From Anaerolineae bacterium CG2_30_57_67 (GTDB lineage Bacteria; Chloroflexota; Anaerolineae; Anaerolineales; Villigracilaceae): DNA of 58,145 nucleotides. The stretch lies in the NCBI GenBank assembly GCA_001872455.1, contig MNXJ01000063.1, forward strand, positions 1 to 58,145, in the 5' to 3' direction. The notes beneath the pieces were generated by a model. That model was not told the origin of the DNA. It did not search any database and was given only the letters and a program-made list of their open reading frames with translations. The translations under genes and the position numbers were made by a program. Below, piece by piece: positions 5,456-24,112 of the stretch (position 1 is the stretch's first letter; every line of letters begins with the position of its first letter).

Positions 5456-6877
5456 TTATTTCACCAGCCAGCCTTCGCTGGCGCAGGCTGGCTCCGCGCC
5501 CGGCCAGGTAACGCAAATCTGATAACTGTATCCGCCTTTTTGGTTGTTACCCTTCCATTCGATGTAGCTGCTGCCGCTGGCGGATGTGGGTGGAAAGGTG
5601 AGTTTTTGCTGGCTTCCATCTGGCAGAGTGATGGTGAGCGTTGGCTGCAAATCTTTCAGCGGTTGGGACGGCGTCTGGTTGTAAATTAGCAAGCTGATGA
5701 TTTGTGTTTCGCCTGGGGCGAGATAGGCGTTTTGCTCCCAAATGCGCAGCTGCAGGTTGGGCGTCAGGCCGGTGCGCGCGCGCAGGTAGTCGTATCCCAG
5801 CGCGGCAGGGTGAATTTGTGCGCCGATGGGCGCGCTGGGGTCAAAGTCGAGGCAGTAAGTGGTGAAACACTGACGGCGCAGACCGGTGAATTCAAACAGT
5901 TCGGTGGTTGGCGGGCCAGAGATTTCATTGCTTCCGTGCCGGGCGACATACTCGATGAAGGCGGTGGCAACGTTGTAGCCCAATCCGTCGCGCAGGGGAA
6001 TGAAACTAAACCCGGGCTCGTTGCGCGGCGCAGCCGGGGCTTGCGGTGCAACCCCTGCCATTTGTGGCAGGGCGCGCAGGCTCATCAGGCGCAAGTTGTC
6101 GGGGGGCGCGGTGACGATGATGTTTTCGTAAATCTGTTCCAAATTGCCGTCTGACGCCAGGTAGACGGGGGAAAGGGGGCTGCCGGTAAAAGAGTCGCCC
6201 AGACGTTCAGTCAGCGCCAAAAAAGGTTCGGGCGGCAAGTTCTGTGGCATGGCGTCGAAGGATTGTCCGGGCGCACAACCGGCGCTATTTTGGCGCTGAT
6301 GGCATTCCATCAACCCGTAAGGAAGCAGATGGACCGTGCCGGGTGGGTCGCTTAAGGCGCGGTACAGTCCCAAATTTTCAAAATATTGTTCCACCCGGTT
6401 TTGCTCGCGATTGACGCGCACCTCTGTCAGCGGGTCGCCCAAAAAACGCAGGCCGCCGAGTCGCTCAAAGCTGGGCATAAACTCTTCGTAGACAACATGT
6501 CCGTTGAAGGATGTGACACCTCGCTGATCTAAAATCGGCAGGGGCGCATCGGCGTTTACCAATCTTATGGCAGTCGGCGCAAATCCAAATTTCTCGCCTA
6601 TAGGCGCGCTGGGGTCGTAGCGCAAGACGGCATTTTCGGTAATTTGGTATTGCAGACCCTCTTCAACAAAGGACGGACCTAACGCCCGTCCCAACGTCGC
6701 TTCTCCGCCATACAAACTGTGAAAGTCACGGAAGAGCGGGTCAATTTCGACTTTTTGGGGCGGCGGTGGTGGGTTGCAGCCTGCCAGGAGCAGGATGAGT
6801 ACAAGCCCCAGGCAGAGTAAAAGATTGTGGCGTCTTGCGCGGGCGTTTGCGGATGGGAGCGTAAAGGTTGCATTCAT
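5456..6877 (-). CDS. lipoprotein of unknown function with duplicated LGFP-like segments
   Basis: A 473-residue exported lipoprotein. The N-terminal hydrophobic segment ends in a lipobox (LLLAGC at about 29-34), followed by a run of prolines. The body contains two copies of a motif of the type RYDPSAPIGEKFGFAPTAI and FDPSAPIGAQIHPAALG. Around these are segments resembling the repetitive secreted glycan-associated proteins common in Chloroflexota. The last 100 residues look like an immunoglobulin-like fold (TLTITLPDGSQQKLTFPP and SSYIEWKGNNQKGGYSYQI). I do not recognise a catalytic motif. A cell-envelope structural or binding role is the most that can be inferred. Confidence 0.8.
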   Translation of the reverse strand: MNATFTLPSANARARRHNLLLCLGLVLILLLAGCNPPPPPQKVEIDPLFRDFHSLYGGEATLGRALGPSFVEEGLQYQITENAVLRYDPSAPIGEKFGFAPTAIRLVNADAPLPILDQRGVTSFNGHVVYEEFMPSFERLGGLRFLGDPLTEVRVNREQNRVEQYFENLGLYRALSDPPGTVHLLPYGLMECHQRQNSAGCAPGQSFDAMPQNLPPEPFLALTERLGDSFTGSPLSPVYLASDGNLEQIYENIIVTAPPDNLRLMSLRALPQMAGVAPQAPAAPRNEPGFSFIPLRDGLGYNVATAFIEYVARHGSNEISGPPTTELFEFTGLRRQCFTTYCLDFDPSAPIGAQIHPAALGYDYLRARTGLTPNLQLRIWEQNAYLAPGETQIISLLIYNQTPSQPLKDLQPTLTITLPDGSQQKLTFPPTSASGSSYIEWKGNNQKGGYSYQICVTWPGAEPACASEGWLVK

Positions 6878-6954
6878 GGCTTTGGGCTTTCTGATTTTCC
6901 CCGTAATTATAATTTACACGAATTCCCGCACTCCTTCCAACTTCTTTGCAATGT

Positions 6955-6983
6955 TTGACGTGAGCATCCCAACCATGTATAAT
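6955..6983 (+). promoter_or_regulatory. sigma-70-type promoter of the signalling cluster
   Basis: TTGACG, a 17-nt spacer and TATAAT, with an expected transcript start near 6990. It is the only strong promoter I found before the run of ten same-strand genes at 7038-21858. It may drive all or most of them. Confidence 0.65.
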
Positions 6984-7037
6984 CGTGAGATATTATTCCT
7001 TCCCACATGACGTGTGGGCATTCCAATGAGGTCGCTC

Positions 7038-7862
7038 ATGGCTCTTCGGGGCAACCTGCGCGATTTTACTGTCACTCAATTACTTAACCTGATCAACCTG
7101 GCAAACAAAACCGGTACTCTCCTTGTGGAAGGACCGAATGAAGTTGCCAGGATTGCTTTTCGTGACGGTAAACTTGCTTACGCTCAACTCGGTCAGGAAG
7201 ACAACCGTCTGGCCGCAATCCTGCATCGCGCTAATCGCCTGACAACCGGGCAGTTGCGTGTAATTCAGATGCGCGCTTCCAGCCTGAGCGATAAGGAGCT
7301 GGGGCTTTCGCTTATTAATGCAAACTATCTCACGCAGGAAGATGTTCTCAATGCCCTGCATGCCTATTTTACCGATATTATTCGCCGCCTGTTTGCCTGG
7401 GTGGAGGGTACCTTTCACTTTGAAAACGAGATGCTGCCGCCGGAAGACCGTATCACGGTGCGGCTTGATTTGGAAAATCTCATTATCGAAGGCGCGCGTC
7501 AGTTGCGCGAGTTTGAGCAGTTGCAGGATGAAATTCCCAGCCTCGATATGGCGTTGCGCTTCACCGAGCGCCCTGGCGCAAACCTGCAAAAAATGAACCT
7601 GAGCGTGGAAGAATGGCGTGTGGTTTCATACATCAGCCCGCGCAATACCATTCAGCAAATTGCGGCGGCCTGTAAAATGAACGACATGGAAATCCGCCGC
7701 ATCATCTACGGCCTGCTTCAGGCCGGGCTGGTTGAAGTTGTCCGCATTGAAAATGTTCCCGCCGCAGTCGAGAAAGCTCGCGCGGCGGCCATGCCTGCTC
7801 AGAACAAAGAAGAGCAAAAATCGCTAGTGAATCGCTTAATTTCGCGGATTCGTTCCATCTAG
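7038..7862 (+). CDS. PATAN/DUF4388-domain protein
   Basis: A 274-residue soluble protein. Residues 1 to about 105 match the PATAN (DUF4388) pattern: ALRGNLRDFTVTQLLNLINL, KTGTLLVEG, ARIAFRDGKLAYAQLG. This domain is found in bacterial signalling proteins, often beside response regulators and Ras-like GTPases. Residues about 175-245 look like a winged helix (VEEWRVVSYISPRNTIQQIA, MEIRRIIYGLLQAGLVEVV). I chose ATG 7038 because GAGG lies 6 nt upstream; an upstream in-frame GTG (7014) and ATG (7026) are possible. It opens the ten-gene cluster and lies 71 nt before the GTPase. It could act as a GTPase effector or regulator, but this is inferred from neighbourhood only. Confidence 0.85.
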   Translation: MALRGNLRDFTVTQLLNLINLANKTGTLLVEGPNEVARIAFRDGKLAYAQLGQEDNRLAAILHRANRLTTGQLRVIQMRASSLSDKELGLSLINANYLTQEDVLNALHAYFTDIIRRLFAWVEGTFHFENEMLPPEDRITVRLDLENLIIEGARQLREFEQLQDEIPSLDMALRFTERPGANLQKMNLSVEEWRVVSYISPRNTIQQIAAACKMNDMEIRRIIYGLLQAGLVEVVRIENVPAAVEKARAAAMPAQNKEEQKSLVNRLISRIRSI

Positions 7863-7933
7863 CTAGTTAGTTTTTAATGTTCATCCTGATGCTTCAACAT
7901 TCATTTATCCTTGTCTTTCGAGGGTGAGATATT

Positions 7934-8476
7934 ATGCAAACGGTCAAAATGGTGGTAACAGGTCCCTTCAGCGCTGGCAAAACGGAGTTTATTCGTTCTG
8001 TCAGCGAAATAGATGTCGTTTCGACGGAGCGCAAAATTACTGGCGACTCGGAACGCACGGTTAAACAAGCAACAACGGTAGCCATGGATTTTGGGCGTAT
8101 TACCGTGGATGAAGACCTGGTGCTGTATCTCTTTGGCACTCCCGGCCAGAAGCGCTTTGACTTCATGTGGGAGATTCTCTCCGAAGGAATGCTAGGCTTT
8201 ATTGTCATGGTGGACAGCACCCGACCGGAAACTTTCCGTGAAGCGCGCTCCATCCTTGAAACCTTTCGCGCGTATGCGCCCACGCCCTACGTGGTTGCTG
8301 CCAACAAACAGGATGCCAGTGAAGCCTGGGAATTGGAAGATATGCGTCACGCCTTGCGCCTTGATTCAAAAGTCAAACTGCTCCCCTGCGTTGCCACCGA
8401 TAAAAATACAGTGAAAAACGTTCTGCTTGAATTGCTATACAGCATTCTGGCAGAAATGGAAACCAGCGAAAAATAA
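7934..8476 (+). CDS. MglA/Ras-like small GTPase
   Basis: A 180-residue single-domain GTPase. G1/P-loop GPFSAGKT is at 10-17, a switch I-type Thr pair (ATTVAMDFG) at 46-54, G3 as FGTPGQKRF at 67-75 (TPGQ instead of DxxG, as in the MglA and CvnD type), and G4 NKQD at 124-127. It fits the bacterial Ras-like group that includes myxobacterial MglA, a polarity switch, and the Streptomyces conservon GTPases. The neighbouring PATAN protein could be its partner. I see no Roadblock/LC7 (MglB-type) GAP in the cluster. The ATG follows GAGGGTGAGATATT, giving a fair ribosome site. It is probably cytoplasmic; no lipidation motif is visible. Confidence 0.92.
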   Translation: MQTVKMVVTGPFSAGKTEFIRSVSEIDVVSTERKITGDSERTVKQATTVAMDFGRITVDEDLVLYLFGTPGQKRFDFMWEILSEGMLGFIVMVDSTRPETFREARSILETFRAYAPTPYVVAANKQDASEAWELEDMRHALRLDSKVKLLPCVATDKNTVKNVLLELLYSILAEMETSEK

Positions 8477-8495
8477 CTTTTCATAGAATGCAACC

Positions 8496-9296
8496 GTGTC
8501 ATCAATCACTACCGATCAAGGTATCGTCCATTATGAGGTCTACGGGCGCGGACGACCAGTAATTTTGTTACATGGCTGGCTGGGCTCGTGGGGCCTCTGG
8601 CAAGAGACAATGGCCTATTTGGGCCGTTATTATCGCACCTATGCGTTGGATTTTTGGGGGTTTGGCGAATCAGGAAAGAAGCGCGATACTTATGCTGTGC
8701 AGGATTTTGTTGGTCTGGTAGACCAATTCATGGATCGTCTTGGCATTGCTCAGGCGCCGCTGGTTGGGCACAGCATGGGCGGCACTGTCAGTCTGGCAGT
8801 TGCAATTCAGTACCCGCAACGCGCGCGTAAAGTCATCGTTGTTGGCTCACCCATCGTTGGCTCATCACTGGCATTTCCCCTCAAATTAGCCGGATACCGT
8901 TTCATTGCCTTCTTTCTCTTCAATATGATGTGGGGCTTCCGCGCCGCCATGAAAGTTGCTTCTCCGTTCATTTGTTCTGACCCCAGCTTTCCGAAAATGA
9001 TGGATCGAGACTTGACCAGCACCACAATTGAATCCTTCTTGCGCAGCATTGCATCTCTGCGCCGCACCGACTTGCGCCCCATGCTTTCACAAATCAAAGT
9101 GCCGGTTATGGGCATGTACGGCGACCGCGACAACATCGTTAACCCGCGACAGTGGCAGCCCCTCGTGCAAGGCGTTCCACAAGCCAAAGTGGTACGCTGG
9201 GCGCGGGCGCAACACTTTGTCATGCTTGATACCCCGCAGGAATTTACGCAAACGCTCAAGGAATTTCTCGACGCCCCAGACGAGACGACAGCCTGA
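8496..9296 (+). CDS. alpha/beta hydrolase with intact triad
   Basis: A 266-residue hydrolase. The oxyanion region HGWLGSWGLW follows strand beta3; the nucleophile elbow GHSMGG gives Ser93; GDRD (about 206-209) supplies the acid and AQHFVMLD the histidine. The family includes esterases, haloperoxidase-like and C-C hydrolases; the substrate cannot be read from sequence. Initiation is at GTG 8496, with no in-frame ATG nearby. A TAGAAT hexamer ends 6 nt before the GTG, so an internal leaderless promoter is possible. It shares a stop-start overlap (TGATG) with the V4R gene. A paralogue with the same opening (GIVHYEV-x-GRGRPVI) ends the cluster at 21073-21858. Confidence 0.9.
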   Translation: MSSITTDQGIVHYEVYGRGRPVILLHGWLGSWGLWQETMAYLGRYYRTYALDFWGFGESGKKRDTYAVQDFVGLVDQFMDRLGIAQAPLVGHSMGGTVSLAVAIQYPQRARKVIVVGSPIVGSSLAFPLKLAGYRFIAFFLFNMMWGFRAAMKVASPFICSDPSFPKMMDRDLTSTTIESFLRSIASLRRTDLRPMLSQIKVPVMGMYGDRDNIVNPRQWQPLVQGVPQAKVVRWARAQHFVMLDTPQEFTQTLKEFLDAPDETTA

Positions 9297-9928
9297 TGAA
9301 TACTCCGAACCCAGAGTTTTTCTACCCAAACCGCATGGGGCGTATTCTCCTCCTGGCGATGGAGGAGATTTTGGGGGATGCCGCCCTAACAACCGTCCTC
9401 AACCTGGCTGGGGAACAACGTCAATTTGAATCCCTTCCGCCTCTGACACAGGCGTTGGAGTTCCCTTTTTCCACCGTTTCGCGGCTTCAATTTGCCCTGG
9501 AAGAACTTTACGGCCCCCGTGGTGGACGGGGGCTGTCTTTGCGTATTGGGCGCGCCTGCTTTTTGGGCGGCTTGCGCGAATTTGGGACTCATCTTGGGGT
9601 GGCCGATGCCGCTTTCCGCTTGCTCCCGCTTCAGACGAAATTGAAAATGGGCGCAAGCGCATTTTCTGGCTTGTTTAATAAAATCAGCGACCAGCGCGTG
9701 CGCCTGGAAGAAACCTCCAGCCAGATACTCTGGCATATTGAGCGTTGTCCGCTCTGCTGGGAGCGCCACGCTGAAGCCCCCGTTTGCCACCTGGCGGTAG
9801 GATTGTTGCAAGAATCGCTCTACTGGGTCAGCGGCGGCAAACTCTTCCATGTGGAGGAAATTGCCTGTCACGCTCGTGGCGATACTGATTGCGCCATTCT
9901 CATTGAAAAAAATCCCCTGGGAGGCTGA
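9296..9928 (+). CDS. V4R-domain protein
   Basis: A 210-residue protein whose C-terminal half (about 95-205) matches the V4R (4-vinyl reductase) small-molecule-binding domain, also found in the effector-binding part of XylR/DmpR-type regulators. The typical cysteine pattern is present: CPLC (151-154), PVCHLAVGLLQESLYW (C164), and EEIACHARGDTDC (C191 and C199). These may bind a metal or help hold the ligand pocket. No DNA-binding or catalytic domain is attached, so it is a candidate stand-alone sensor or carrier. It is translationally coupled to the hydrolase before it and lies 3 nt before the beta-helix gene, so the two flanking enzymes are plausible partners. Confidence 0.82.
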   Translation: MNTPNPEFFYPNRMGRILLLAMEEILGDAALTTVLNLAGEQRQFESLPPLTQALEFPFSTVSRLQFALEELYGPRGGRGLSLRIGRACFLGGLREFGTHLGVADAAFRLLPLQTKLKMGASAFSGLFNKISDQRVRLEETSSQILWHIERCPLCWERHAEAPVCHLAVGLLQESLYWVSGGKLFHVEEIACHARGDTDCAILIEKNPLGG

Positions 9929-9931
9929 GCC

Positions 9932-11206
9932 ATGCTAAAAATAATCCTTCAGGCGCAAAAAAAACTCTCCCCATTCAATGAGCGCGCGCGTGACTTGCGA
10001 ATTCAAAACACTCCGCTCTGGCTATTGCAGCGTGACGCTCTGGCGCCGTATACCTCGCGCGAGCAGGAAGTACCTGCCAATGCGCGTATGCCGATTTCGC
10101 ATGAGCCAATGATTGTCTACCGCGACAATCTCTTCTTCGACCCCCCTTACATCCGCGCTTTTATGGAAACCGCTTTGCGCAAGAACCGCCCGGTACGCGC
10201 TGCTTTTGCGCTGGATGACCCCGCTTTCCGTGAACACGCCCTGCCACTTTCCACATCTTACACCCCAGCTGGAAACCTGTACCTGGCTGATTTGTGGTAT
10301 TACCCTGAAGGCCCGGTGGCCGACCCTGAACCGTTGGTGGTTGATTTACAGTCGCGCGAAGTCGGCTACTATCACGTCCCATCCTATATGGCTGGTCAGC
10401 GTGGCAACCTGATCTTTCATGTACCCCAGCGTGCCATGATGTCCATTGATTGCTGGACGCATATTTTCATTGCCGACGTTGTTTTTGGCCTCTTTAAACG
10501 CGCCAACCGGGTTGAACTACAACTCAATAACGACTTGGCTTTCAAACTTAAAGTACTTGGCAAAGCCGTTTATGAGGGTCGTCAGGTGTTGGAATGTTCT
10601 GAACTGGTCACCATCGGCAAAAACTGCGTCATTGACCCGCACGCCATCATTCATGGCCCGACCACCATTGGCGATAACGTCACCGTTGGCGCCGGCGCGG
10701 TGATTGAAAACTGTATTATCGGCAATGATGTCAATGTTTCGCAAGGCTGTCAACTGATGCTTTCAGTGGTGGGCGATGGTACTTTTCTGCCCTTCCGCGC
10801 CGCCTTATTTATGACCACCATCATGGAAAATTCGATGGTGGCGCAAAATACCTGCCTGCAAATGTGCGTGATCGGGCGCAACACATTTTTGGGAGCAGGC
10901 TCAACCTTCACTGACTATAATTTAATCCCGGCCCCCATTCGTGCGCTCGATGGCAACGACCAGTTGAAAAATTCCAACCGCCCGGTACTGGGAGGTTGTG
11001 TCGGACACAACTGCCGCATTGGCGCGGGCATGATTATCTTCCCAGCGCGCACAATAGAATCAGATGTCGTTCTGGCCGCCTCGCGCGAACGTCGTGTAGT
11101 TGACCGCGATGTTAAATTTGCCGATAGCGACCATCACAAACTCAAAAATGCCAGTCAACATACGGTGCTGTACCGTCCTCAACAGCCCGAGTCTGACTCA
11201 TGGTAA
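9932..11206 (+). CDS. left-handed beta-helix (hexapeptide repeat) protein
   Basis: 424 residues. About 1-215 is a mixed domain I do not recognise. About 220-400 is a left-handed parallel beta-helix built from hexapeptide turns (IGKNCVIDPHAIIHGPTTIG, VTVGAGAVIENCIIG, CVIGRNTFLGAGSTF, IGAGMIIFPARTI). Such helices form trimeric acyl- or sugar-nucleotide transferases (LpxA, GlmU, LpxD) and some carbonic anhydrases. The overall plan of an N-terminal domain followed by a helix recalls GlmU, but I see no GlmU pyrophosphorylase signature. A transferase role acting on an acyl or sugar group is inferred. The gene lies 3 nt after the V4R gene and 3 nt before the acyl-ACP reductase-like gene. Confidence 0.8.
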   Translation: MLKIILQAQKKLSPFNERARDLRIQNTPLWLLQRDALAPYTSREQEVPANARMPISHEPMIVYRDNLFFDPPYIRAFMETALRKNRPVRAAFALDDPAFREHALPLSTSYTPAGNLYLADLWYYPEGPVADPEPLVVDLQSREVGYYHVPSYMAGQRGNLIFHVPQRAMMSIDCWTHIFIADVVFGLFKRANRVELQLNNDLAFKLKVLGKAVYEGRQVLECSELVTIGKNCVIDPHAIIHGPTTIGDNVTVGAGAVIENCIIGNDVNVSQGCQLMLSVVGDGTFLPFRAALFMTTIMENSMVAQNTCLQMCVIGRNTFLGAGSTFTDYNLIPAPIRALDGNDQLKNSNRPVLGGCVGHNCRIGAGMIIFPARTIESDVVLAASRERRVVDRDVKFADSDHHKLKNASQHTVLYRPQQPESDSW

Positions 11207-11209
11207 TTC

Positions 11210-12295
11210 ATGGACACTTTTGCCTTCATTATTCATCCAATTGACCCCAAGCGAGATGTCAGCCGAAAATATCCACTGTTAGGAAAAATTTTTAGCGAAA
11301 ATCAGATCAACTTTTTTTCAACCTTTTTCCCGCCAGTTTACATTTCTGAAATCACTGGAATTACATCTGCATCTACTGGCAAGGAAATCAAAGGTTGGTT
11401 TGTGGCTTGCCCGTTCACCCCGCGGCGCATGTTAGAATTGCCAGAGCCGATGGTTTACCGCAAAATCATCCAGACCGGGCGAATGGCAGAACGCCTGGGC
11501 GCGCAAATGCTTGGATTGGGAGCTTTCACCTCGGTTGTGGGTGATGCCGGACTGACCATTGCCCGCGCACTGAATGTTCCCGTTACCACCGGCGACGCCT
11601 ACACCGTTTCGATGGCGGTTCAAGCGATACGCGAGGCCGCCCACCAAATGGAAATTCCGCTCGAATCGGCAACTGCCGCCGTCGTTGGCGCTACCGGAGC
11701 AATTGGAAGAGTTTGTGCAGAACTTCTCGCAGATGCCGTAGGTGAGTTATACTTAATAGGTCGCAACATTGAAATGTTGGCAGCCTTGCGCGAACAATGG
11801 CAACCACATTGCCGCGCGCGCTTGCGCATCAGCGCAGACATGGATGTGCTTTCGCAGGCGCAACTGGTTTTGACCGTTACCAGCGCCGTCCACGACGTCA
11901 TCCGCCCTGAGAATCTTCAGCCGGGTAGTGTTGTCTGTGATGTCGCCCGCCCTCGTGATGTTTCTGCAATGGTGGCTGCTGCGCGAGACGATATACTTGT
12001 GATTGATGGCGGCATGGTGGATGTGCCAGGCTGTGTTGATTTTCATTTCAATTTTGGCTTTCCAGAAGGCAAGGCCTATGCTTGCATGGCCGAAACCATA
12101 GCCCTGACACTGGAAGGCCGTTTTGAAGATTACACCCTTGGAAAAGAGATTTCCCGCACCCGGGTGGATGAAATTACCGAAATCGCCACCCGGCACGGTT
12201 TTCGTCTTAGCGGCTTCCGTTCTTTTGAGCGCGAAGTCACAGCGGAACAAATCGACGTTGTACGTCGCAAGGCGCTCGCCAGCAAGCGACGCTAA
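11210..12295 (+). CDS. homologue of long-chain acyl-ACP reductase (cyanobacterial AAR type)
   Basis: 361 residues, close to the usual length (about 340) of cyanobacterial acyl-ACP reductase, which reduces fatty acyl-ACP to fatty aldehyde with NADPH. Shared features are the GLGAFTSVVGDAG segment (102-114), TTGDAYTVSMAVQAI (126-140), the Rossmann loop VVGATGAIGR (158-167), VIDGGMVDVPGCVDFHFNFG (264-283) and KAYACMAETIALTLEG (288-303). Cys292 sits where the acyl-thioester cysteine of AAR lies (QMFACFAES in cyanobacteria). No aldehyde-deformylating oxygenase gene is nearby, so alkanes are not implied. The family is often labelled shikimate or amino acid dehydrogenase, but the cysteine argues for an acyl reductase. 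Substrate is unproven. It is tightly spaced in the cluster. Confidence 0.78.
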   Translation: MDTFAFIIHPIDPKRDVSRKYPLLGKIFSENQINFFSTFFPPVYISEITGITSASTGKEIKGWFVACPFTPRRMLELPEPMVYRKIIQTGRMAERLGAQMLGLGAFTSVVGDAGLTIARALNVPVTTGDAYTVSMAVQAIREAAHQMEIPLESATAAVVGATGAIGRVCAELLADAVGELYLIGRNIEMLAALREQWQPHCRARLRISADMDVLSQAQLVLTVTSAVHDVIRPENLQPGSVVCDVARPRDVSAMVAAARDDILVIDGGMVDVPGCVDFHFNFGFPEGKAYACMAETIALTLEGRFEDYTLGKEISRTRVDEITEIATRHGFRLSGFRSFEREVTAEQIDVVRRKALASKRR

Positions 12296-12313
12296 ATTTT
12301 TTGGAGGCTCGTT

Positions 12314-13219
12314 ATGGGAAAAGCCCGTCTGTTGATTACCGAAGATGATGTAGACATCTCCAACATGCTAAAAATTTACTTCACCGGCTTGGGCTACGAG
12401 GTGGATGTCGCCATGCGCGGATCAGAAGCGCTGGAAAAAACCCGTCAGGTGTTGCCTCATCTGATTGTGCTGGATATCATGCTGCCGGATATTGATGGCT
12501 ATGAAGTCTGCCGCAATCTGCGTACTAGCACGCGCACCAGCCATATCCCGGTCATCTTCCTCACACAGAAAGATGAGCGCAGTGACCGCTTGCAAGGATT
12601 GGAACTGGGCGCGGATGATTACATCACCAAACCTTTTGACATTGAAGAATTGAAACTGCGCGTTCAGGGCGCCATCCGCCGCTCGGAGCGTGAAAGCCTG
12701 ACAGACCCGCGTTCCGGCCTGCCAGCAGGACGCCTCATCGAGGAACAGCTGCGCAAAATTATCCGTGAAAAAGGCTGGGCATTCCTCGATTTGCGCATCA
12801 ACAACTTTGTTGCCTTTAAAGATGTTTATGGTTTTGTTGCGGGCGACGATGTTTTGCGCTTTGCTGGAATGCTGATTGGTGAAGTGTTGGATGAGATTGG
12901 TACTTCAGGCGATTTTATTGGGCACGCCGGGGATGACAACTTCATCATCATCACCACCGAGGCCACCGCTGCTGCTATTCGTCAACGCCTGAAAGACCGC
13001 TTTGCCGAAGAAGTGCAGACGCACTACAACTTCATGGACCGTCAGCAGGGCTTCATCATGGTTCTTAACGCTGAAGGACAAACTGAAAAATTCCCACTAA
13101 TGTCTCTGGCGGTTGGCATTGTTGCCCCTGCGCAGCAATCGTTTGCCGATATTCGGGAAATTACCGAAATGGCCGCCGAAGCGCGTCGTCAGGATGTGGG
13201 GAACGCCCCAAAAGGATAA
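12314..13219 (+). CDS. response regulator with degenerate GGDEF domain
   Basis: 301 residues. REC domain 1 to about 120: acidic pair ED(D) at 10-12, phosphoacceptor Asp54 in VLDIMLPD, Thr84 and Lys106 in YITKPFD. The C-terminal domain (about 128-295) follows the GGDEF fold (DPRSGLPAGRLIEEQL, then LRINNFVAFKDVYG), but the active-site GGDEF is AGDDN (205-209). It is therefore unlikely to make cyclic di-GMP and may act as a nucleotide sensor or protein-binding output. ATG follows GGAGGCTCGTT. It lies 9 nt before the giant kinase gene and is a likely phosphotransfer partner. Confidence 0.9.
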   Translation: MGKARLLITEDDVDISNMLKIYFTGLGYEVDVAMRGSEALEKTRQVLPHLIVLDIMLPDIDGYEVCRNLRTSTRTSHIPVIFLTQKDERSDRLQGLELGADDYITKPFDIEELKLRVQGAIRRSERESLTDPRSGLPAGRLIEEQLRKIIREKGWAFLDLRINNFVAFKDVYGFVAGDDVLRFAGMLIGEVLDEIGTSGDFIGHAGDDNFIIITTEATAAAIRQRLKDRFAEEVQTHYNFMDRQQGFIMVLNAEGQTEKFPLMSLAVGIVAPAQQSFADIREITEMAAEARRQDVGNAPKG

Positions 13220-13228
13220 AGATCGTTC

Positions 13229-16200
13229 ATGCTTGGGCAACCGCTTGCCATCGGCACTGGCTTTCTGCTCTTTGGACTGGCGTTTATCTTGCTGGCCTGG
13301 TCGCTTTTGCGAATTGTTCCTCGCGTGCGACCCGCTTTGCGGGAGATGACGCCCCAGTCCTTTGTTAAGGTTAAAAGCCATCAGGACGCAATTTTGGTGG
13401 TTCAGGCGGGGGGACGAGTTTCCTTCTTAAACGAGATTGCGCGCGAGTGGTTTGACCTATCGGAGGGGGAATATCCGGGCATTGAGCGTATGAGTCGACG
13501 GGTGCGCCCCGGAGAAGTTTTCTTTGAAATCTGCGCGGCTGAAGGTCAGGCGCGTTTTTCCATTAATGGCAGTTTGGTAGATGCCACTTCTTACAACATC
13601 CCAGGCGCCAATCCCTCTATTTTGGTGACGATTCGCGCCGCCGGCGGCGCGATGTCACCGTCTGAAGGGGATACGTTTTCATCTGCTACGTTGCAAACGA
13701 TTGCTGAATTCGGCAGAGAAGTTGCCTCCAATCTCAACCTTGAAGCGACGTTGGAAACAACACTGACTCACATCGAACAGCTTGTTCCAGTTGATTTTAT
13801 CGAAGTAAAAGTACGAAATGCTGCGGGGGGGGTATTTACACCGTATAGCCTGGTCGGACCGGCGGGTTCAACGCGCACTTTGCAACCCAGCTCTGACAGC
13901 CAGTTTGGCGAATATGAGACTTTTTTGATTAAAGAAAAACGTGAGCTTTTTCTTCCGGATACCCGCGTTCCGGCATTGGCGCGTTTTGACCCGAAAGCCG
14001 GTCGTCTGGCTCCAATGGGTTCCTACATTGGCTTGCCATTAATCAGCGCTGGCGATATGGTTGGATTGCTTGAGGTGGGTGTTATCCCGGTGAATGGTTT
14101 TGCCGAAGATGATTTGCGCTTGCTGCGCATGGTTAGTGCGCAGGCGGCCATCGCCATTCGCAATGCCTTGACCTACGAAGACCAGCAACGCTGGACATCT
14201 CAATTGCTTGGGTTAACCAATCTTTCGCAAACGGTTGGCACGTTGCGTGATATCAAAGAACTTTTTCCCGGCCTGGTTGCGGGCATTGCATCCCTTTTTG
14301 ATGTCAATATTCTGGGCTTTTTGCTTTACGATGAACAGCGCCGTACGCTGGATGCGCAGGACCCCTTTGAAGGGCTTTCCAGCCAGTTCGTGGGCATTTA
14401 CCGCATCACTGTACCCGCCAACAGTTCGGCAGAGAAGCGCATTTTTAGTCAGGAACTTGTCACCAGTCTGGACGCTTCGCAAGACCCGGTGTGGGCTGAG
14501 TTGGGATTGCAGGACCTGTCGCAGGCCGCCAGTATGCGCGATACCACCCTCTCGCCGCTGGTTTCTGCCGGGCGATTTCTGGGATTTTTACAACTCTCCA
14601 ACCACAAACATGGAAACATTGCGCTTGCCCCTGATGAATTACGCCTGTTGAATTTGGTTACCAGCCAGGCGGCGGCCATCATTGACAATGCCTTGCTGGT
14701 GCAACAGGCGCGTCAGCGCAACCAACGCGCCGAGTCACTCCGTCGGATTGCCAATCTGGTAAGTTCCAACGCATCTCTGGATGAAATCCTACATTACTCT
14801 GTCAATGAGTCAGCCCGTCTGCTCCAGGCAGATTTTGCTTCGCTCTTTTTGCTGGACGAGGAGGAAGGCACCTTGCGCGCGCATCTCCCGTCCATTTATG
14901 GCGTGGAAGCAAACGAAAATGATGAAATTGCGCGGTTGGATATCAGACCGGCGCTTTTTCACCTGACAGTCGCCGGTAGTCAACGCCCCTTCCTTTCTGG
15001 CAACCTTTCCAGCGATCGGCGCGTCTTACCGATGTACCGGGCTTTTATCCGCCGGCTGAAGGTCGAATCTAGTATCAACGTTCCGCTGGTGGCGCACGGG
15101 CAAGGGATTGGCGAAATGATGTTCAGCGCCTGCGCCCCAGATTTGTTTAACAATTATGACCTGCAAGTTGCCTCTACCATTGCCAGCCAGTTGGCGGTTG
15201 CCATCGAAAACGCTCGCCACGGCGGCAGCTCTGGGGCTGAGATTTCACATCCTCAGACTGACCAGACGACCAGCATTATTCGAGTGGCGCGTGAGCTCAA
15301 TACCACCACCGACTTACGTGAGCAGTTGCGGATTCTCTACGATGAAGTTTTGAAAATCTCAGGCGCTGATTGTGGATCAGCTTTCTTGTTTGAAGAACAC
15401 CTGGCGTCAACCGCCGAACGCCAGGTGAGTATGTTTTTTGGGCATGCGATGACCGGAGGCATGACCAAACGCGCAACACGCGCCATTGAGTCCCACGCCC
15501 CGTTGTTGTGGACCGATTTTAACCAGGAGCTGCCGCACGATGGTGTCAAAGCAACCTTGTTGATGCCCGTTTTTTACCAGGAAAACACTTTCGGCCTGAT
15601 CGAACTGCACAGCGCTAACCCGGCTTGCTTTACCGATGACATTCAGTCTGCCGTCCGCGCGGTTGCGGTGCAGGCCGCGCTGGCGGTAGGAAATACAGTG
15701 CGTTATCGTGAGCAGCAACATCGTGTCGAAACGATGCGGCGTCGCGTTGAAGCGCTTAACCAATTATTTGAAACCTCGCGCAGCCTGCGGGCAGAATCGG
15801 AACTGGAAAACGCTTTGCAGGCGATTGCCCGGGGCATTCAGCGCGCAACCCCGTTTCAGATTGTGCTGATTAGTTTGCTGGAACCTCAGACCGGGTTGTT
15901 GCGCCGTGTGGTTGGCGCGGGCATTAGCCCCGAAACTTTTGCTACTTTGCAGGCGCACCAGCAACCCTGGGCATCTGTGGCGCAATTGCTGAAACCTCAG
16001 TTTGAAATTGGTGACTTGTTCTTCATCCCCAATGACCAGATGCCTTTGGTGCCAAGTGAAGTTCAAATGATTACGGTCACGTCTTCGACGAGCGAAGCCC
16101 CGAACTCTTGGAATCCCGATGACATGCTTGTCATTCCAATTTACGACCGAAACGACTCCCCGTTAGGGTTGATTAGCGTGGACGCGCCCCGCGATGGACA

Positions 16201-19200
16201 ACGTCCCGACCGCATCACCCTGGAGTTACTGGAAGGGCTTGCCTTGCAGGCCGCGTTGACCATTGCTGGTGGTCAGCGGTTGAGCGCTTTGCACGGTGAT
16301 ATGGACTTGCTCAACATGGAAGTAGACCGCCAAAAGAGCCTGGTCGGCTTCAGCCAGCGTAGTTTACCCATGCTCCTGCACAAAGATCTGGAACAAACTA
16401 TTTCCATCAGCGACCTCAATCAGCGTGGAATGCACATCCGCGCCGGATTGCAGTTGACAGAAGCCATCAGCCGCCAGGTGGACGCTTCTTCGGCGCTGCT
16501 CACCCTTGGGCAACAAATTCTTGCCAGTTTTGATATGACTGTCGCGCTGGTCGCCAAGGAAACGCCCGAAGGCCCGCGCATTATTCACATGTTGGGGAGT
16601 TTGCCGCGCGGCGCCAACCCAGACGCCATGTTCGGCCAGCGCAACCCGCTGCGCACCTGCCTGCAGGGCGGTGAAACCATCATCTCGGCCAATGTGGATG
16701 AAGACGAAACATGGCATGATACGCCTTTTTTGACCGCTATCAAAGCGAGATCGTTCATTGCCATTCCAGTTGTCATCAACAATCATCCGATTGCGGCGGT
16801 GCTGGCAGTGGATACTGAAGCCATGCCCACGCTTTCGTCCGATGACCGCCAGGTCTATTTTCAAATTAGCCGTCAGGTCTCGATTATTCTGCAAAATATC
16901 AGCCTGCTAAGCGAGACCCGTCAGCGTTTGGAAGAAGTCAACCTGCTGTTGGATTTCAGCCGCCGCTTGAGCGGCCTCAACCCGACCGAGATTTTACAGA
17001 CCCTGCTGGAAAGCGCCTTGCGCGTGGTCAATGCCGCCCATGCCGGTTTTGTCTTGTTGTGGGACGCGCGCGAAGAAGCCCTTTTGCCACAGGCCGCCTC
17101 CAGCTATGCAGATAACGAAAATATCCTTTCCATCCCTTACCGGATGGGCGAAGGCTTGCCGGGACGCGTGTTTGAAGAGCGCCAGCCGCGCCGGGTGGAT
17201 GAGATTAATTTCGCCGCTGATTACAACCTGCCTGCCGAACAATTACTCAAATACCGCAAGGCCACTGGTGGGCGCTTGCCCGTTTCCAGCATCTTAATTC
17301 CCATTCAGACCAGTCAGCGCAATTTGGGCATCGTCGTGCTGGATAATTTCAACGCGGTGGCGGCTTTTCGCGCCGATGACGAAGCCATTCTGCTCTCCCT
17401 CACCCAGCAGGTTGCGCTCTCGCTCGAAAATGTACGCCTTGTTCAGGCCACCCAGGAGCGCGCCGGACAGTTGCAGGCGCTTAACGCGGTCGCATCCACC
17501 ATCAGTTCATCGCTCAAACGCGAGGAATTAATTGCCTCCCTGCTTGATCGTCTGAAAGCCGTGATTGCCTACGATACAGCCATCCTTTGGCTGCGCCAGG
17601 AAAACCGCATGATTGTGGCAGAAGCCAGCGGTTTTGCCGATGACGAAGACCGCAAAGGCATCTCGGTGGATGTGGACGACAGTGTTCTACTGAAAGAAAT
17701 GACCCGTTCTGGTCAGGCGATTTCGGTTGGCGATGTGCGCTCCGACCAGCGTTTCCCCACACTGGTAGAGGCCACCCACCTCTCCTGGCTGGGCGTTCCG
17801 CTGATTGCCAAAGGCGAAGTGATTGGTGTGATCGCCGTTGAGAAACAGGAAGCCAACTTCTATAGCCGCGAACAAGTGCAATTGGCGGCCACTTTTGCCA
17901 GCCAGGCAGCGGTAGCGCTTGAAAATGCCAATCTCTTTGAAGAAAGTCTGCGCCGCGCCGCTGAACTGGACGAACGTTCACAACGCCTGGCATTGCTCAA
18001 CCAATTCTCATTTGACCTGAGCGCCTCGCTGAATACGGACCAGGTTTTGCATCTGACTGCCAATCAGTTGATGCGCGCCTTGTCGGCAGAGCGCGCCATG
18101 CTGATTTTGCTTGACCGTAACGGCAAGAACTCTCTGTTGAGTGTTTTACCCGATGAAACCGACCAGCCTGCCATCTACCGCACCTTGCCGGGTTCACCGA
18201 TGTTGGAACATCTGCGCCAGTCGCAGACGGTGTATACGGCGGAAGACATCACCACGCAGGCAGACCTGGCCTCTTTAACGGAATTCATGCCCCAGGCACG
18301 CGCCCTGCTCGCGTTGCCGATTTCCACCAGCCGGAACATCTACGCTATTTTGGTGCAGAGCGCCCTCCCGCGCCGCTTCTCCTCCACTGAAATTGAACTG
18401 ACACGTACGCTTGGAAACCAGGCCGGTATCGCTCTTGAAAACGCCGATTTGTATCAATCCACATTGGCAACTGCGGAACGTCTGGGAATTTTGAATCAGG
18501 TCTCAGCAGAAATCAACGCCAAGTTAGACCCGGAACAAATTTACGTTTCCATCCAGGAAGCAATTCGTAAACTGATGCCGGTTGACGCGTTTATTGTGGC
18601 GATTTTGGATGAAAACCAGGGTGATATTGACGCGGCTTATGTGATGGACATGGGCCAGCGTATCAGCGGTGTGCGTTTGTCGCTCGGGCAGGGGCTTAGC
18701 GGCAGCGTCATTGCCACCGGCCAACCCCTGATGACAATGGACGCTGCCGAAGCAGATCTGCGCGGCGGCGTGACAATTGGCGAAAAAGGTACGCCGCATT
18801 CCATTATTGCTGTTCCAATGCTTTCGGGCAGCAAAGTGATTGGCGTACTTTCTGCACAGAGTTATCAGTTTAATGCCTACGCCGATGCCGATTTGCAAAT
18901 TTTGGGTACGTTGGCGAACCAGGCCTCCGTTGCCATTCTGAATGGCCGTTTGTTTAGCGAAACCCAGCAATTGGCCGCCACCCTCGAACAACGCGTGGTA
19001 GACCGTACCGCTGAACTGGCGCACGAACAGCGCAATACTGAAACCCTTTTGCGAATTTTGACCGAAGTTTCGGCCAGCCTCGATCTCGACCGCGCGTTAG
19101 GGCGCACGCTGGCGCTCCTGAACGATGCTTTGGGCGCGGAACAGGGCACCATCATGCTTCTGCACCCTGAAGATAATATGTTGCATTATCGCGCCGGCTA

Positions 19201-20668
19201 TGGCTACGCCACCGGCGAAGATGAACAAGCGTCTCTGGTACAGAATAGTAATTTCAAACTAAAAGTGGGCGAAGGCCTGGCTGGTTGGGTGGTCAAGCAC
19301 CGTCAGCCAGTTTTGGTGGAAGATTTGTACAGCGACCCGCGCTGGGTGGTCTCGCAAAACAGTTCCCAGCAACACCGCAGCGCAATTGTCTCGCCGCTGA
19401 TGGCGGGTGAAGATGTGATTGGCTCGATTATGGTTTTCCACCGCAAGGTGGGCTTCTTCAGCGCCGACGCGCTTGAAATGGTCAAGGCCATTGGCGCACA
19501 GGTGGCAATTGCCATCAGCAACGCCCAACTCTATCAACTCATCCGCGACCAGGCTGAACGCCTTGGCACCATGTTACGCAATCAGCAGATGGAAGCCAGC
19601 CGCCAGACCGCTATTCTCGAGGCTGTGGCCGATGGCGTGTTGGTCACCGACCCGGCCAACATCGTCAGTTTTGTTAACAACTCAGTTGAATCTATCCTTG
19701 GGCTGACGCTAGAACAAATTGAAGGCCAACCGGTTGAAAATTTCTCTGGTTTATTTGGCAAAAGCTCACAAACCTGGATCGAAACCGTGCGTTCCTGGTC
19801 GGGGGACGCCTCGTCGGAACGCGCCGGAGAAACCTTTGCAGAACAAATTAACCTGGAAAATGGCCGCGTGGTACTGGTTCACCTGGCGCCGGTTATCTGG
19901 CAAAAGGAATTTCTTGGCACTGTTTCCATCTTCCGTGACATTACCCACGAAGTGGAAGTAGACCGCCTTAAGTCAGAGTTTGTTGCCACCGTCAGCCACG
20001 AATTGCGCACGCCCATGACTTCCATTCGCGGTTATGTTGATGTGCTGCTGATGGGCGCAGCGGGCGCGGTCAGTGAAAATCAACGCCACTTCCTCGATAT
20101 TGTCAAAAGTAATACTGAACGTCTCAACATTTTGGTCAACGACCTGCTGGATATTTCCCGCATCGAAGCCGGGCGTGTGACGCTTTCCTACCAATCGGTG
20201 GATTTGTGCGAGGCCGCCGAAAATGTCGTGGCGGATATGACTCGTCGCTCACAGGAAGAAAACAAACCGATGACGGTTACGCTTGATGCTGAACCAAAAT
20301 TGCCGCGCGTACTGGGCGATGCCGAACGTGTTCAGCAGATTATTAATAACCTGGTTGATAACGCTTACAACTACACCCCAGAAAACGGCCACATCACCAT
20401 TCGTATGCGCCGCGAAAACGACTCTGTGCGTGTGGACGTACAGGATTCTGGCATTGGCGTTGCGCCGGAAAATCAGGAGCGTGTTTTTGACCGCTTCTTC
20501 CGGGGTGAAGATCCGTTAGTTTTGGCGACCCCTGGCACTGGCTTGGGCCTGCCCATCGTGAAACAACTGGTGGAGATGCACCGTGGCAAAATCTGGATGA
20601 CCAGCGCGGGCATCCCTGGTCAGGGAAGCACATTCTCCTTTACCTTACCCGTGGAAAAATCTGAGTAG
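13229..20668 (+). CDS. giant multi-GAF hybrid sensor histidine kinase
   Basis: 2479 residues. An N-terminal membrane helix (about 6-28) is followed by a PAS-like segment (about 40-135). Then come about eleven GAF-type units at roughly 151-314, 324-494, 505-666, 681-828, 843-1018, 1070-1228, 1235-1408, 1415-1568, 1585-1741, 1751-1911 and 1940-2104. Most end in a helix of the form QAAVALENANLF. A short coiled coil (EQRVVDRTAELAHEQRN) precedes the last GAF. PAS is at about 2124-2241. HisKA carries SHELRTPMTS with His2257, and HATPase_c shows the N box NNLVDNAYNYTP, DSGIGVAP and GTGLGLPIVKQL. The kinase core is complete and should be active, autophosphorylating and passing phosphate to one of the flanking REC proteins. 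GAF boundaries are by eye; ligands are unknown. It stands out by size alone. Confidence 0.92.
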   Translation: MLGQPLAIGTGFLLFGLAFILLAWSLLRIVPRVRPALREMTPQSFVKVKSHQDAILVVQAGGRVSFLNEIAREWFDLSEGEYPGIERMSRRVRPGEVFFEICAAEGQARFSINGSLVDATSYNIPGANPSILVTIRAAGGAMSPSEGDTFSSATLQTIAEFGREVASNLNLEATLETTLTHIEQLVPVDFIEVKVRNAAGGVFTPYSLVGPAGSTRTLQPSSDSQFGEYETFLIKEKRELFLPDTRVPALARFDPKAGRLAPMGSYIGLPLISAGDMVGLLEVGVIPVNGFAEDDLRLLRMVSAQAAIAIRNALTYEDQQRWTSQLLGLTNLSQTVGTLRDIKELFPGLVAGIASLFDVNILGFLLYDEQRRTLDAQDPFEGLSSQFVGIYRITVPANSSAEKRIFSQELVTSLDASQDPVWAELGLQDLSQAASMRDTTLSPLVSAGRFLGFLQLSNHKHGNIALAPDELRLLNLVTSQAAAIIDNALLVQQARQRNQRAESLRRIANLVSSNASLDEILHYSVNESARLLQADFASLFLLDEEEGTLRAHLPSIYGVEANENDEIARLDIRPALFHLTVAGSQRPFLSGNLSSDRRVLPMYRAFIRRLKVESSINVPLVAHGQGIGEMMFSACAPDLFNNYDLQVASTIASQLAVAIENARHGGSSGAEISHPQTDQTTSIIRVARELNTTTDLREQLRILYDEVLKISGADCGSAFLFEEHLASTAERQVSMFFGHAMTGGMTKRATRAIESHAPLLWTDFNQELPHDGVKATLLMPVFYQENTFGLIELHSANPACFTDDIQSAVRAVAVQAALAVGNTVRYREQQHRVETMRRRVEALNQLFETSRSLRAESELENALQAIARGIQRATPFQIVLISLLEPQTGLLRRVVGAGISPETFATLQAHQQPWASVAQLLKPQFEIGDLFFIPNDQMPLVPSEVQMITVTSSTSEAPNSWNPDDMLVIPIYDRNDSPLGLISVDAPRDGQRPDRITLELLEGLALQAALTIAGGQRLSALHGDMDLLNMEVDRQKSLVGFSQRSLPMLLHKDLEQTISISDLNQRGMHIRAGLQLTEAISRQVDASSALLTLGQQILASFDMTVALVAKETPEGPRIIHMLGSLPRGANPDAMFGQRNPLRTCLQGGETIISANVDEDETWHDTPFLTAIKARSFIAIPVVINNHPIAAVLAVDTEAMPTLSSDDRQVYFQISRQVSIILQNISLLSETRQRLEEVNLLLDFSRRLSGLNPTEILQTLLESALRVVNAAHAGFVLLWDAREEALLPQAASSYADNENILSIPYRMGEGLPGRVFEERQPRRVDEINFAADYNLPAEQLLKYRKATGGRLPVSSILIPIQTSQRNLGIVVLDNFNAVAAFRADDEAILLSLTQQVALSLENVRLVQATQERAGQLQALNAVASTISSSLKREELIASLLDRLKAVIAYDTAILWLRQENRMIVAEASGFADDEDRKGISVDVDDSVLLKEMTRSGQAISVGDVRSDQRFPTLVEATHLSWLGVPLIAKGEVIGVIAVEKQEANFYSREQVQLAATFASQAAVALENANLFEESLRRAAELDERSQRLALLNQFSFDLSASLNTDQVLHLTANQLMRALSAERAMLILLDRNGKNSLLSVLPDETDQPAIYRTLPGSPMLEHLRQSQTVYTAEDITTQADLASLTEFMPQARALLALPISTSRNIYAILVQSALPRRFSSTEIELTRTLGNQAGIALENADLYQSTLATAERLGILNQVSAEINAKLDPEQIYVSIQEAIRKLMPVDAFIVAILDENQGDIDAAYVMDMGQRISGVRLSLGQGLSGSVIATGQPLMTMDAAEADLRGGVTIGEKGTPHSIIAVPMLSGSKVIGVLSAQSYQFNAYADADLQILGTLANQASVAILNGRLFSETQQLAATLEQRVVDRTAELAHEQRNTETLLRILTEVSASLDLDRALGRTLALLNDALGAEQGTIMLLHPEDNMLHYRAGYGYATGEDEQASLVQNSNFKLKVGEGLAGWVVKHRQPVLVEDLYSDPRWVVSQNSSQQHRSAIVSPLMAGEDVIGSIMVFHRKVGFFSADALEMVKAIGAQVAIAISNAQLYQLIRDQAERLGTMLRNQQMEASRQTAILEAVADGVLVTDPANIVSFVNNSVESILGLTLEQIEGQPVENFSGLFGKSSQTWIETVRSWSGDASSERAGETFAEQINLENGRVVLVHLAPVIWQKEFLGTVSIFRDITHEVEVDRLKSEFVATVSHELRTPMTSIRGYVDVLLMGAAGAVSENQRHFLDIVKSNTERLNILVNDLLDISRIEAGRVTLSYQSVDLCEAAENVVADMTRRSQEENKPMTVTLDAEPKLPRVLGDAERVQQIINNLVDNAYNYTPENGHITIRMRRENDSVRVDVQDSGIGVAPENQERVFDRFFRGEDPLVLATPGTGLGLPIVKQLVEMHRGKIWMTSAGIPGQGSTFSFTLPVEKSE

Positions 20669-20676
20669 GAGTTGGA

Positions 20677-21051
20677 ATGGCAAAGATTGTCATTGCGGAA
20701 GATGAACCCGACATTCGAGAATTAATCGCCTTTACCCTGCGTTTTGCCGGGCATGAGGTTGTTGCCGGGGCAAATGGCGAAGAAGGCTATGAACTGGTTA
20801 AGCGCGAAAAACCCGACCTGGCGATGTTTGATGTGCGCATGCCCAAAATGACCGGCTACGAAGCCTGTAAAAAAATTAAAGCGGAGCCGGAAATCGCCTC
20901 CACGCCGGTCGTTTTCCTCTCTGCCAAAGGCCAGGAATCCGAAATTGAGCAAGGGATGGCGGTTGGCGCAGAAGATTACCTGCTGAAGCCGTTTGCGCCC
21001 GATCAATTGGCCGCGCGTGTAAAAGAAATTTTGGCAAAATTTGGAAAATAA
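20677..21051 (+). CDS. single-domain CheY-like response regulator
   Basis: 124 residues, a stand-alone REC domain with all switch residues: acidic EDE at 8-10, Asp52 in MFDVRMPKM, Ser82 in VFLSAK and Lys104 in YLLKPFAP. There is no output domain, so it works by protein contact or as a phosphate shuttle. TAGGAG lies before the ATG, 8 nt after the kinase stop, so it is almost certainly co-translated with the kinase and a direct substrate. Confidence 0.93.
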   Translation: MAKIVIAEDEPDIRELIAFTLRFAGHEVVAGANGEEGYELVKREKPDLAMFDVRMPKMTGYEACKKIKAEPEIASTPVVFLSAKGQESEIEQGMAVGAEDYLLKPFAPDQLAARVKEILAKFGK

Positions 21052-21072
21052 ACTTTTGTTCAACTGGTTGAA

Positions 21073-21858: not shown

Positions 21859-21864
21859 AACGGG

Positions 21865-21870
21865 TATAAT
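21865..21870 (+). promoter_or_regulatory. -10 box of the thiamine operon
   Basis: A perfect TATAAT just after the hydrolase stop codon, 16 nt before the TPP riboswitch. No clear -35 hexamer is visible. The position fits initiation at the riboswitch 5' edge. Confidence 0.5.
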
Positions 21871-21881
21871 TACGCCCACAA

Positions 21882-21972
21882 TTGAACGGGGAGCCGCTTG
21901 CCGGCTGAGAGGAGCGTTGCCGCTCGACCCGCAGAACCTGAACCGGTTAGTACCGGCGGAGGGATGGTTGGT
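21882..21972 (+). ncRNA. TPP riboswitch (THI element)
   Basis: Conserved THI-box elements occur in order: ACGGGGAGCC, GGCTGAGAGGAG, the GACCCGCAGAACCTGAACC core, GGTTAGTACCGGCGGAGGGA. It binds thiamine pyrophosphate. A perfect Rho-independent terminator follows at 21983, so this is a transcription-terminating OFF switch. It controls a salvage operon (pyrophosphokinase plus importer), not de novo synthesis. Confidence 0.96.
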
Positions 21973-21982
21973 TTCACCTTTC

Positions 21983-22014
21983 ACATCTTCCGCGCCGGAA
22001 GATGTTTTTTGTTT
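21983..22014 (+). terminator. riboswitch-controlled terminator
   Basis: A perfect 9-bp stem (ACATCTTCC pairing with GGAAGATGT) with a 5-nt loop and the U-tract TTTTTTGTTTT. It lies between the TPP aptamer and the ribosome site (AGGAGG) of the pyrophosphokinase gene, where a TPP expression platform belongs. Confidence 0.92.
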
Positions 22015-22029
22015 TCAGGAGGTTTTGTC

Positions 22030-22671: not shown

Positions 22672-22679
22672 ATTTTCGC

Positions 22680-22711
<32 letters not shown>

Positions 22712-22726
22712 CCAAAAGGAGTTTCC

Positions 22727-23779: not shown

Positions 23780-23810
23780 TAACCCGTCACGCGATATTCA
23801 TTTCAGAGAT

Positions 23811-23873: not shown

Positions 23874-23904
23874 CCGTGCCGTCCCAAAATTTGTCTCCAA
23901 GTAA

Positions 23905-24070: not shown

Positions 24071-24112
24071 TCATGTCTCCAAAATCATAGCAACGCGCAA
24101 GCGTAATTCCTC

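Follow-up and report, generated by a model that had tools for sequence, protein, structure and literature searches.

Described reductases with the fold of cyanobacterial acyl-ACP reductase (AAR) come with a known next enzyme for the aldehyde: in the available portions of the three papers concerned (PMC7089970, PMC8341465 and PMC9594044), this is either the aldehyde deformylating oxygenase (ADO) or an aminotransferase. AAR and PtTamH are thioester reductases by experiment (PMC7089970 and PMC9594044, respectively, each as far as its available text goes), and PigE showed reductase activity in cell lysate, while the purified protein was inactive as a reductase (PMC8341465). According to the same paper, glutamyl-tRNA reductase likewise hands its aldehyde to the next enzyme.

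The window analysed here is a stretch of 58,145 nucleotides from Anaerolineae bacterium CG2_30_57_67 (Chloroflexota; contig MNXJ01000063.1). One of its genes probably encodes a stand-alone NAD(P)H-dependent acyl-thioester reductase whose aldehyde would go to a partner other than ADO, likeliest the hexapeptide protein of the adjoining gene, within a unit whose products are apparently made together. Comparison supports the fold, the cysteine and the nucleotide loop of the reductase; its catalysis, substrate and cofactor we infer. By analogy with AAR, PigE and PtTamH, Cys292 would be acylated from a thioester of CoA or acyl carrier protein, the loop GATGAIG would hold the NAD(P)H that gives the hydride, and the acyl group would be released as an aldehyde and passed on. 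AAR, PigE and PtTamH each pass their aldehyde to a following enzyme that is bound to them or fused with them, which makes the hexapeptide protein the prime candidate for a partner here. An AAR-like reductase that has no alkane partner and lies within a conserved signalling cluster probably makes a fatty aldehyde for a lipid or a signal. Among the open-literature matches listed, no title or abstract beginning described a Chloroflexota reductase or operon of this kind. The reductase gene and two of its sites are as follows.

11210–12295, + strand: reductase gene, ATG start, 361 amino acids; AAR-fold acyl-thioester reductase by profile, alignment, fold and tree
11687–11707, + strand: glycine-rich dinucleotide loop GATGAIG, residues 160–166, aligned with AAR 162–168 (GATGDIG)
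12083–12085, + strand: codon of Cys292, the putative acyl-thioester cysteine, equivalent to AAR Cys294; present in 106/106 and 33/33 aligned rows

Family of the reductase

Two NCBIfam models lead the ranking for the reductase, the PigE profile NF053554 (214 bits, E = 3.1e-63, residues 4–354 on 2–356) and, second, the AAR profile TIGR04058 (113 bits, residues 28–332), and both scores fall far short of the curated cut-offs of 850 and 449.7 bits, respectively. Judged by profile score, the protein is therefore nearer to the thioester-reductase domain of PigE than to AAR. Sequence searches against solved structures at a threshold of 0.001 returned PigE (4ppm), AAR (6jzq), two further AAR chains and nothing more. 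PigE 4ppm matches residues 49–349 with E = 8.9e-38, a better value than that of the S. elongatus AAR, which aligns with the reductase over residues 11–332 to 11–335 (E = 8.9e-27) with 102 of 310 aligned residues identical. The full-length likeness to cyanobacterial AAR proposed in the earlier note is borne out by this alignment and by the fold (Z 37.3, below). The 361 residues contain no match to the class III aminotransferase family PF00202 in a Pfam scan.

A tree of 33 reductase domains, with 6JZQ as the single cyanobacterial AAR, places the window reductase among Anaerolineales copies, its seven nearest rows being supported at 100/98. The wider set of stand-alone Chloroflexota copies is less firm (14 rows, 91/84), and L121 and L134 have no settled place. 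PigE-type rows are separate (100/100) on a long branch, fused Chloroflexota copies are separate as well (100/100), and 6JZQ sits on a long branch in an unsure position, where its grouping with L108, L109 and L165 (94/94) unites long branches. Since the tree sets the PigE-type rows apart, the protein is not a PigE despite its high score against that profile. The protein has the AAR fold, yet it is no AAR in the strict sense, because its scores stay far under the cut-offs for both AAR and PigE, Tyr247 of AAR is missing and it clusters with other Chloroflexota copies. The description as an AAR homologue thus stands for homology and fold and needs amending for kinship: the profile is nearer PigE, both scores are below cut-off and the tree joins the reductase to neither. 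Within the AAR/PigE reductases it forms a variant of its own.

The reductases of Chloroflexota are of at least four kinds (stand-alone, fused, aminotransferase-reductase and distant). Fused copies carry the reductase domain behind an N-terminal region of ~310 residues, for which the two proteins scanned (L157 and L159) gave no Pfam match; these genes lie at L157:4033–6087, L158:5636–7693, L159:4005–6290, L160:4794–6869 and L166:2791–4989, and some genomes carry two of them. An 849-residue aminotransferase-reductase protein with a layout like that of tambjamine TamH is encoded at L167:6018–8567 in a Chloroflexota genome. The distant kind has nearby either a gene resembling those of fatty acyl-AMP ligases (L171) or one for a thiamine-dependent enzyme (L165). 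A close copy of the reductase occurs in 27 of 41 genomes (the source genome and 40 relatives) and a distant copy alone in two more, 29 in total. The AAR profile TIGR04058 exceeded 449.7 bits in 0/301 Chloroflexota genomes and in 1/14 control genomes; besides S. elongatus, the controls Thermus composti, Deinobacterium chartae and Methanocaldococcus jannaschii gave matches under the cut-off.

The ten-gene unit

Ten genes on the same strand (7014–21858), separated by gaps of −1 to 71 bases, make up the unit in the order given here together with its flanking sites.

6955–6983, + strand: promoter-like site TTGACG-17-TATAAT directly 5′ of the unit's first gene; a consensus match only
7014–7862, + strand: DUF4388 protein, 282 amino acids; PF14332, 94.3 bits, residues 12–166
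7934–8476, + strand: small Ras/Arf-like GTPase, 180 amino acids; PF03029, PF00071, PF00025
8496–9296, + strand: alpha/beta hydrolase 1, 266 amino acids; PF00561, 109.8 bits; nucleophile motif GHSMG
9296–9928, + strand: V4R-domain protein, 210 amino acids; PF02830, 39.5 bits, residues 148–204
9932–11206, + strand: GlmU-like hexapeptide (left-handed beta helix) protein, 424 amino acids; PF00132, 52.2 bits
11210–12295, + strand: the reductase
12314–13219, + strand: response regulator with degenerate GGDEF domain, 301 amino acids; PF00072, PF00990
13229–20668, + strand: giant sensor histidine kinase, 2479 amino acids; ~11 GAF matches, PAS, HisKA, HATPase
20677–21051, + strand: stand-alone response-regulator receiver, 124 amino acids; PF00072, 102.5 bits
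21073–21858, + strand: alpha/beta hydrolase 2, 261 amino acids; PF00561, 73 bits; homologue of hydrolase 1
21983–22005, + strand: terminator-like hairpin 3′ of the last unit gene, 10 pairs then TTTTTGTTTT; a pattern match only

The unit's genes, including those for the GTPase and the two-component system, appear to be expressed together. The promoter-like site has 11/12 matches and is the best of 19 found in 6800–24200 (shuffles gave a mean of 10.2 sites), and the hairpin has the longest stem of the 32 found in that region. A listed thiamine pyrophosphokinase ORF (21898–22671 in the window) begins 5′ of the hairpin; translation of this ORF probably begins 3′ of the listed start. We take DUF4388 to be the PATAN domain, and V4R is presumably a domain for small hydrophobic ligands. 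Among the ten proteins, a Pfam scan revealed neither a carrier protein nor an acyl ligase, an aminotransferase or an alcohol dehydrogenase.

This arrangement is conserved. In the best 80 of 241 loci, on contigs titled Anaerolineae, Anaerolineales, Chloroflexi and similar, the hexapeptide gene adjoins the reductase in 79 (the exception is L066), and the regulator gene follows the reductase in all 80; several contigs stop within the unit. A hydrolase is encoded upstream in 65/80 loci, and V4R was detected in 53 of those and undetected in 12: it is a dispensable member of the unit. The GTPase is 79–94% identical to its counterparts where these were found in L001–L080, the highest value of the genes compared. 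The GHSMG motif is present in 60/68 best matches of hydrolase 1, the remaining eight having no G-x-S-x-G in the scanned stretch; hydrolases 1 and 2 share 44% identity over 120 amino acids, and the hydrolase beside the fused reductase of L157, at 25% identity to hydrolase 1, was discounted as the same partner. The receiver Asp of the response regulator is constant in 78/78 aligned sequences (the window and 77 of the 80 loci), and 70 of these 78 have HAGGDNF at the GGDEF site, where the window has HAGDDNF. With the site so degenerate, diguanylate cyclase activity is unlikely and synthesis of cyclic-di-GMP by this regulator is not expected.

Outside the order Anaerolineales, L162 has all ten genes in identical order; the kinase of the window is larger than the L162 counterpart (1644 amino acids, five GAF matches). 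L161 and L163, also outside the order, have the DUF4388, GTPase, hydrolase, hexapeptide and reductase genes, and neither shows a V4R gene, regulator or kinase like those of the window near the reductase. The tie of the reductase to the trio of DUF4388 protein, GTPase and hydrolase is thus wider than its tie to the two-component genes. The conserved signalling unit outweighs the missing oxygenase in interest.

One possibility, which we consider unlikely, is that the signal is the aldehyde, or something derived from it, made by the reductase, bound by V4R, trimmed or released by the hydrolases and answered by the GAF kinase. The regulator that follows the reductase in all 80 loci and the place of the V4R gene between the hydrolase and hexapeptide genes are consistent with such a circuit; the 12 loci with an upstream hydrolase and undetected V4R, and the gene content of L161 and L163, argue against it, and ligand binding by V4R is our own assumption.

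The hexapeptide neighbour and the fate of the aldehyde

The hexapeptide gene and the start of the reductase gene are 3 bases apart. The hexapeptide protein, as modelled, resembles sugar-nucleotide/acetyltransferase enzymes (against ST0452, Z 17.4 and rmsd 5.8 over 280 residues, from a low-confidence model with pLDDT 63). It is not GlmU: it scores 39.7 bits against the GlmU cut-off of 366.85, Gln305 (invariant in 20/20 aligned sequences) sits at the position of the GlmU His that we take to be an active-site residue, and a true GlmU is encoded elsewhere in the genome (540.5 bits).

Presence of the hexapeptide protein and of the reductase is strongly associated across 301 Chloroflexota genomes. 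Each is found in 53 genomes; 49 have both, 4 and 4 have a single one and 244 have neither (Fisher P = 1e-46 by genome, a value that ignores shared ancestry). Counted by family, 8 have both and 4 and 2 have one (P ~ 5e-7, assuming ~84 family labels). Thresholds were E 1e-10 or better for the reductase and 1e-20 or better for the hexapeptide protein, with at most five or six candidates scored per genome; the reductase threshold was set afterwards and reduces 69 matching genomes to 53, the other 16 having E above 1e-6. The pairing also holds in genomes in which the two genes lie far apart (e.g., 3535126 and 4439109 in G152), which favours a common task over a merely inherited order. On this analysis, the hexapeptide protein is the likeliest partner of the reductase.

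The earlier note had claimed that no aldehyde deformylating oxygenase accompanies the reductase and that the aldehyde, if made, must go elsewhere. Both statements are supported: the ADO family PF11266 is absent from the source genome and from the 40 relatives (0/41), and 0/301 Chloroflexota genomes have a match above cut-off, with five weak matches below it. As a control, the model matched in S. elongatus and Caulobacter, above cut-off in one of the two. The source genome is 98.4% complete in 87 contigs, so a missed ADO is unlikely, though possible. These results speak against alkane synthesis through ADO.

Of the fates that had been suggested as examples (an alcohol, an ester, an ether lipid or a signal), the ester by its usual route is not supported, since the wax ester synthase family WS/DGAT (PF03007) is absent from the source genome and present in 1/41 genomes. 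A reductase whose aldehyde serves fatty alcohol and wax esters is accordingly improbable: wax esters are reported from some Chloroflexi (PMC9271869, citing earlier work, in its available text), but the synthase in one genome contrasts with the reductase in 29 of the 41, even if another ester synthase is possible.

The link of the reductase to lipids comes from the neighbours of more distant copies. An acyltransferase gene (PF01553, L164:2718–3452) ends 10 bases 5′ of a stand-alone reductase, with a patatin-like gene on the opposite side, and the gene upstream of the reductase in L171 is fatty acyl-AMP ligase-like (PF00501; its best NCBIfam model is below cut-off). A ligase-like ORF 5′ of the L066 reductase, a fatty acyl-AMP ligase by eye, was discounted because an ORF on the opposite strand intervenes.

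A 233-residue membrane protein (41923–42615, + strand, in the window) lies directly 5′ of the hexapeptide-reductase pair in four of the six loci opened (L049:3569–4270, L057:1098–1799, L065:42–776 and L076:5785–6486). It presumably resembles phytol/dolichol kinases, and the four copies scanned have no Pfam match. As a dedicated partner it was rejected: it occurs in 31/41 genomes, with and without the reductase, and is 30 kb away in the window, and because of this independent spread and distance we dropped it as specific evidence.

For the reductase paired with the hexapeptide protein, our guess is that the product might feed a membrane or surface lipid, with its output tuned by the signalling system. 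Tentatively, Anaerolineales may commonly possess a signal-controlled fatty-aldehyde module in which the reductase would deliver to the hexapeptide protein under the DUF4388/GTPase pair and a multi-GAF two-component system, and the end product would be a lipid, or a lipid signal, not described so far. Such a module would differ from both AAR-ADO and PigE/TamH. Its form in other Chloroflexota would comprise the reductase fused behind ~310 uncharacterised residues and a hexapeptide protein encoded elsewhere in the genome.

Active site, fold and known systems

The cysteine of an ACMAE motif, Cys292, had been assigned to the position of the catalytic cysteine of AAR, and the alignment agrees: it maps to AAR Cys294 and is invariant in all 106 aligned rows (93 distinct, the window being one), as are Glu295, Arg259, His9, Lys85 and Thr126. 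Arg185 and Arg247 each differ in one row, and residue 189 varies freely. These rows leave out L050, which has a broken ORF, and L108 onward, which are distant copies and repeats; L081 is the window and was entered once. Cys292, Glu295 and Thr126 are also constant across the wider 33-row set that includes AAR and PigE.

With residue roles taken from the available text of PMC7089970, the AAR residues that contact the NADPH phosphate (Arg189, Arg193 and Arg314) correspond to Arg185, Met189 and Lys312 in the reductase, two of the three being basic, and the ADO-docking residues Arg73, Arg79 and Lys80 correspond to Pro78, Arg84 and Lys85. Tyr247 of AAR is part of the acyl tunnel, and its alanine mutant fails to bind stearoyl-CoA (PMC7089970, same portion); the position is Arg247 in the reductase and in 105/106 rows. 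This replacement suggests that the substrate may be polar close to the thioester rather than a plain long-chain fatty acyl group.

The loss of Tyr247 and of Arg193, the place in a signalling unit and the degenerate GGDEF domain next door could also be read as signs of a reductase that has lost catalysis and instead senses redox state or acyl thioesters on behalf of the two-component system. We doubt this strongly, because 105–106 of 106 rows preserve Cys292, the loop glycines, Arg185, Glu295, Arg259 and His9, which is what an enzyme would show.

For the acyl-thioester reductase that we prefer, a model built from 24 aligned sequences (pLDDT 92.7, pTM 0.90) predicts the AAR fold along the whole chain. 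Four AAR entries are the top structural matches (Z 36.2–37.3, rmsd 2.5–2.9 over 323–328 residues; 6JZY reaches Z 37.3 and rmsd 2.6 Å over 324 residues), and five TAD entries from the carmabin pathway have Z 34.3–35.5 (9E4S, Z 35.5 and rmsd 2.9 over 341 residues); the next family, glutamyl-tRNA reductase, drops to Z 14.5. Foldseek likewise ranks AAR and TAD top (TM-score 0.80/0.84). Overlay on AAR had been proposed as the test against a shikimate-type dehydrogenase, and AAR is the best match; the best shikimate-type entry listed, the dehydrogenase YdiB, gave Z 13.3 and rmsd 6.2 over 227 residues. In the profile search proposed alongside, the shikimate dehydrogenase models NF001312 (20.4 bits, cut-off 295) and NF001314 (15.3 bits, cut-off 248) stayed below their cut-offs. 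A shikimate/quinate-type or amino-acid dehydrogenase that shares with AAR the nucleotide domain alone is very improbable: the shikimate-dehydrogenase nucleotide domain PF01488 is the sole Pfam family above cut-off (39.4 vs. 24.3 bits), but it spans only residues 146–260, the invariant Cys292 lies outside it, and the whole-chain Z of 34–37 for AAR and TAD is far above that of YdiB.

In this group, most of whose members have not been cultured, the reductase has a conserved setting without a known enzyme to consume its aldehyde. Should it produce aldehydes, one would predict a lipid or signal not yet described, with the hexapeptide protein as the leading partner; if it makes none, AAR-like genes without ADO are not to be taken as evidence of hydrocarbon synthesis.

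Each of the known systems shares some features with the reductase and differs in others. The N-terminal domain of PigE (NF053554, 4ppm; prodigiosin pathway) gives the best profile and E-value and has the cysteine, Thr126, Glu295 and a PRD motif in common with it. In contrast, PigE carries a fused class III aminotransferase domain, which the reductase lacks and which is encoded nowhere in the unit; identity is ~30%, and the PigE-type rows stand apart in the tree. Cyanobacterial AAR (TIGR04058; 6JZQ, 6JZU, 6JZY, 6JZZ) shares the fold, the catalytic cysteine, the glycine loop and, as Arg84 and Lys85, the docking residues Arg79 and Lys80, whereas 30–33% identity, the sub-cut-off score, the absence of ADO, and Arg247, Met189 and Pro78 set the reductase apart. 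The C-terminal domain of PtTamH (tambjamine YP1) is AAR-like and takes acyl-ACP, not acyl-CoA, but PtTamH is fused to a transaminase and is NADH-specific (PMC9594044, in its available text). A PtTamH-like layout occurs in Chloroflexota in L167, and the row of this type (L136) is placed elsewhere in the tree from the window reductase. Finally, the carmabin TAD (9E4S, 9E4U, 9E56), whose entries are titled as NADH complexes and as a disulfide between a cysteine and dephospho-CoA, and on which an open-literature search gave no paper, matches the whole chain in fold (Z 35.5), but it shares only 18% identity with the reductase and comes from an amino acid adenylation domain protein.
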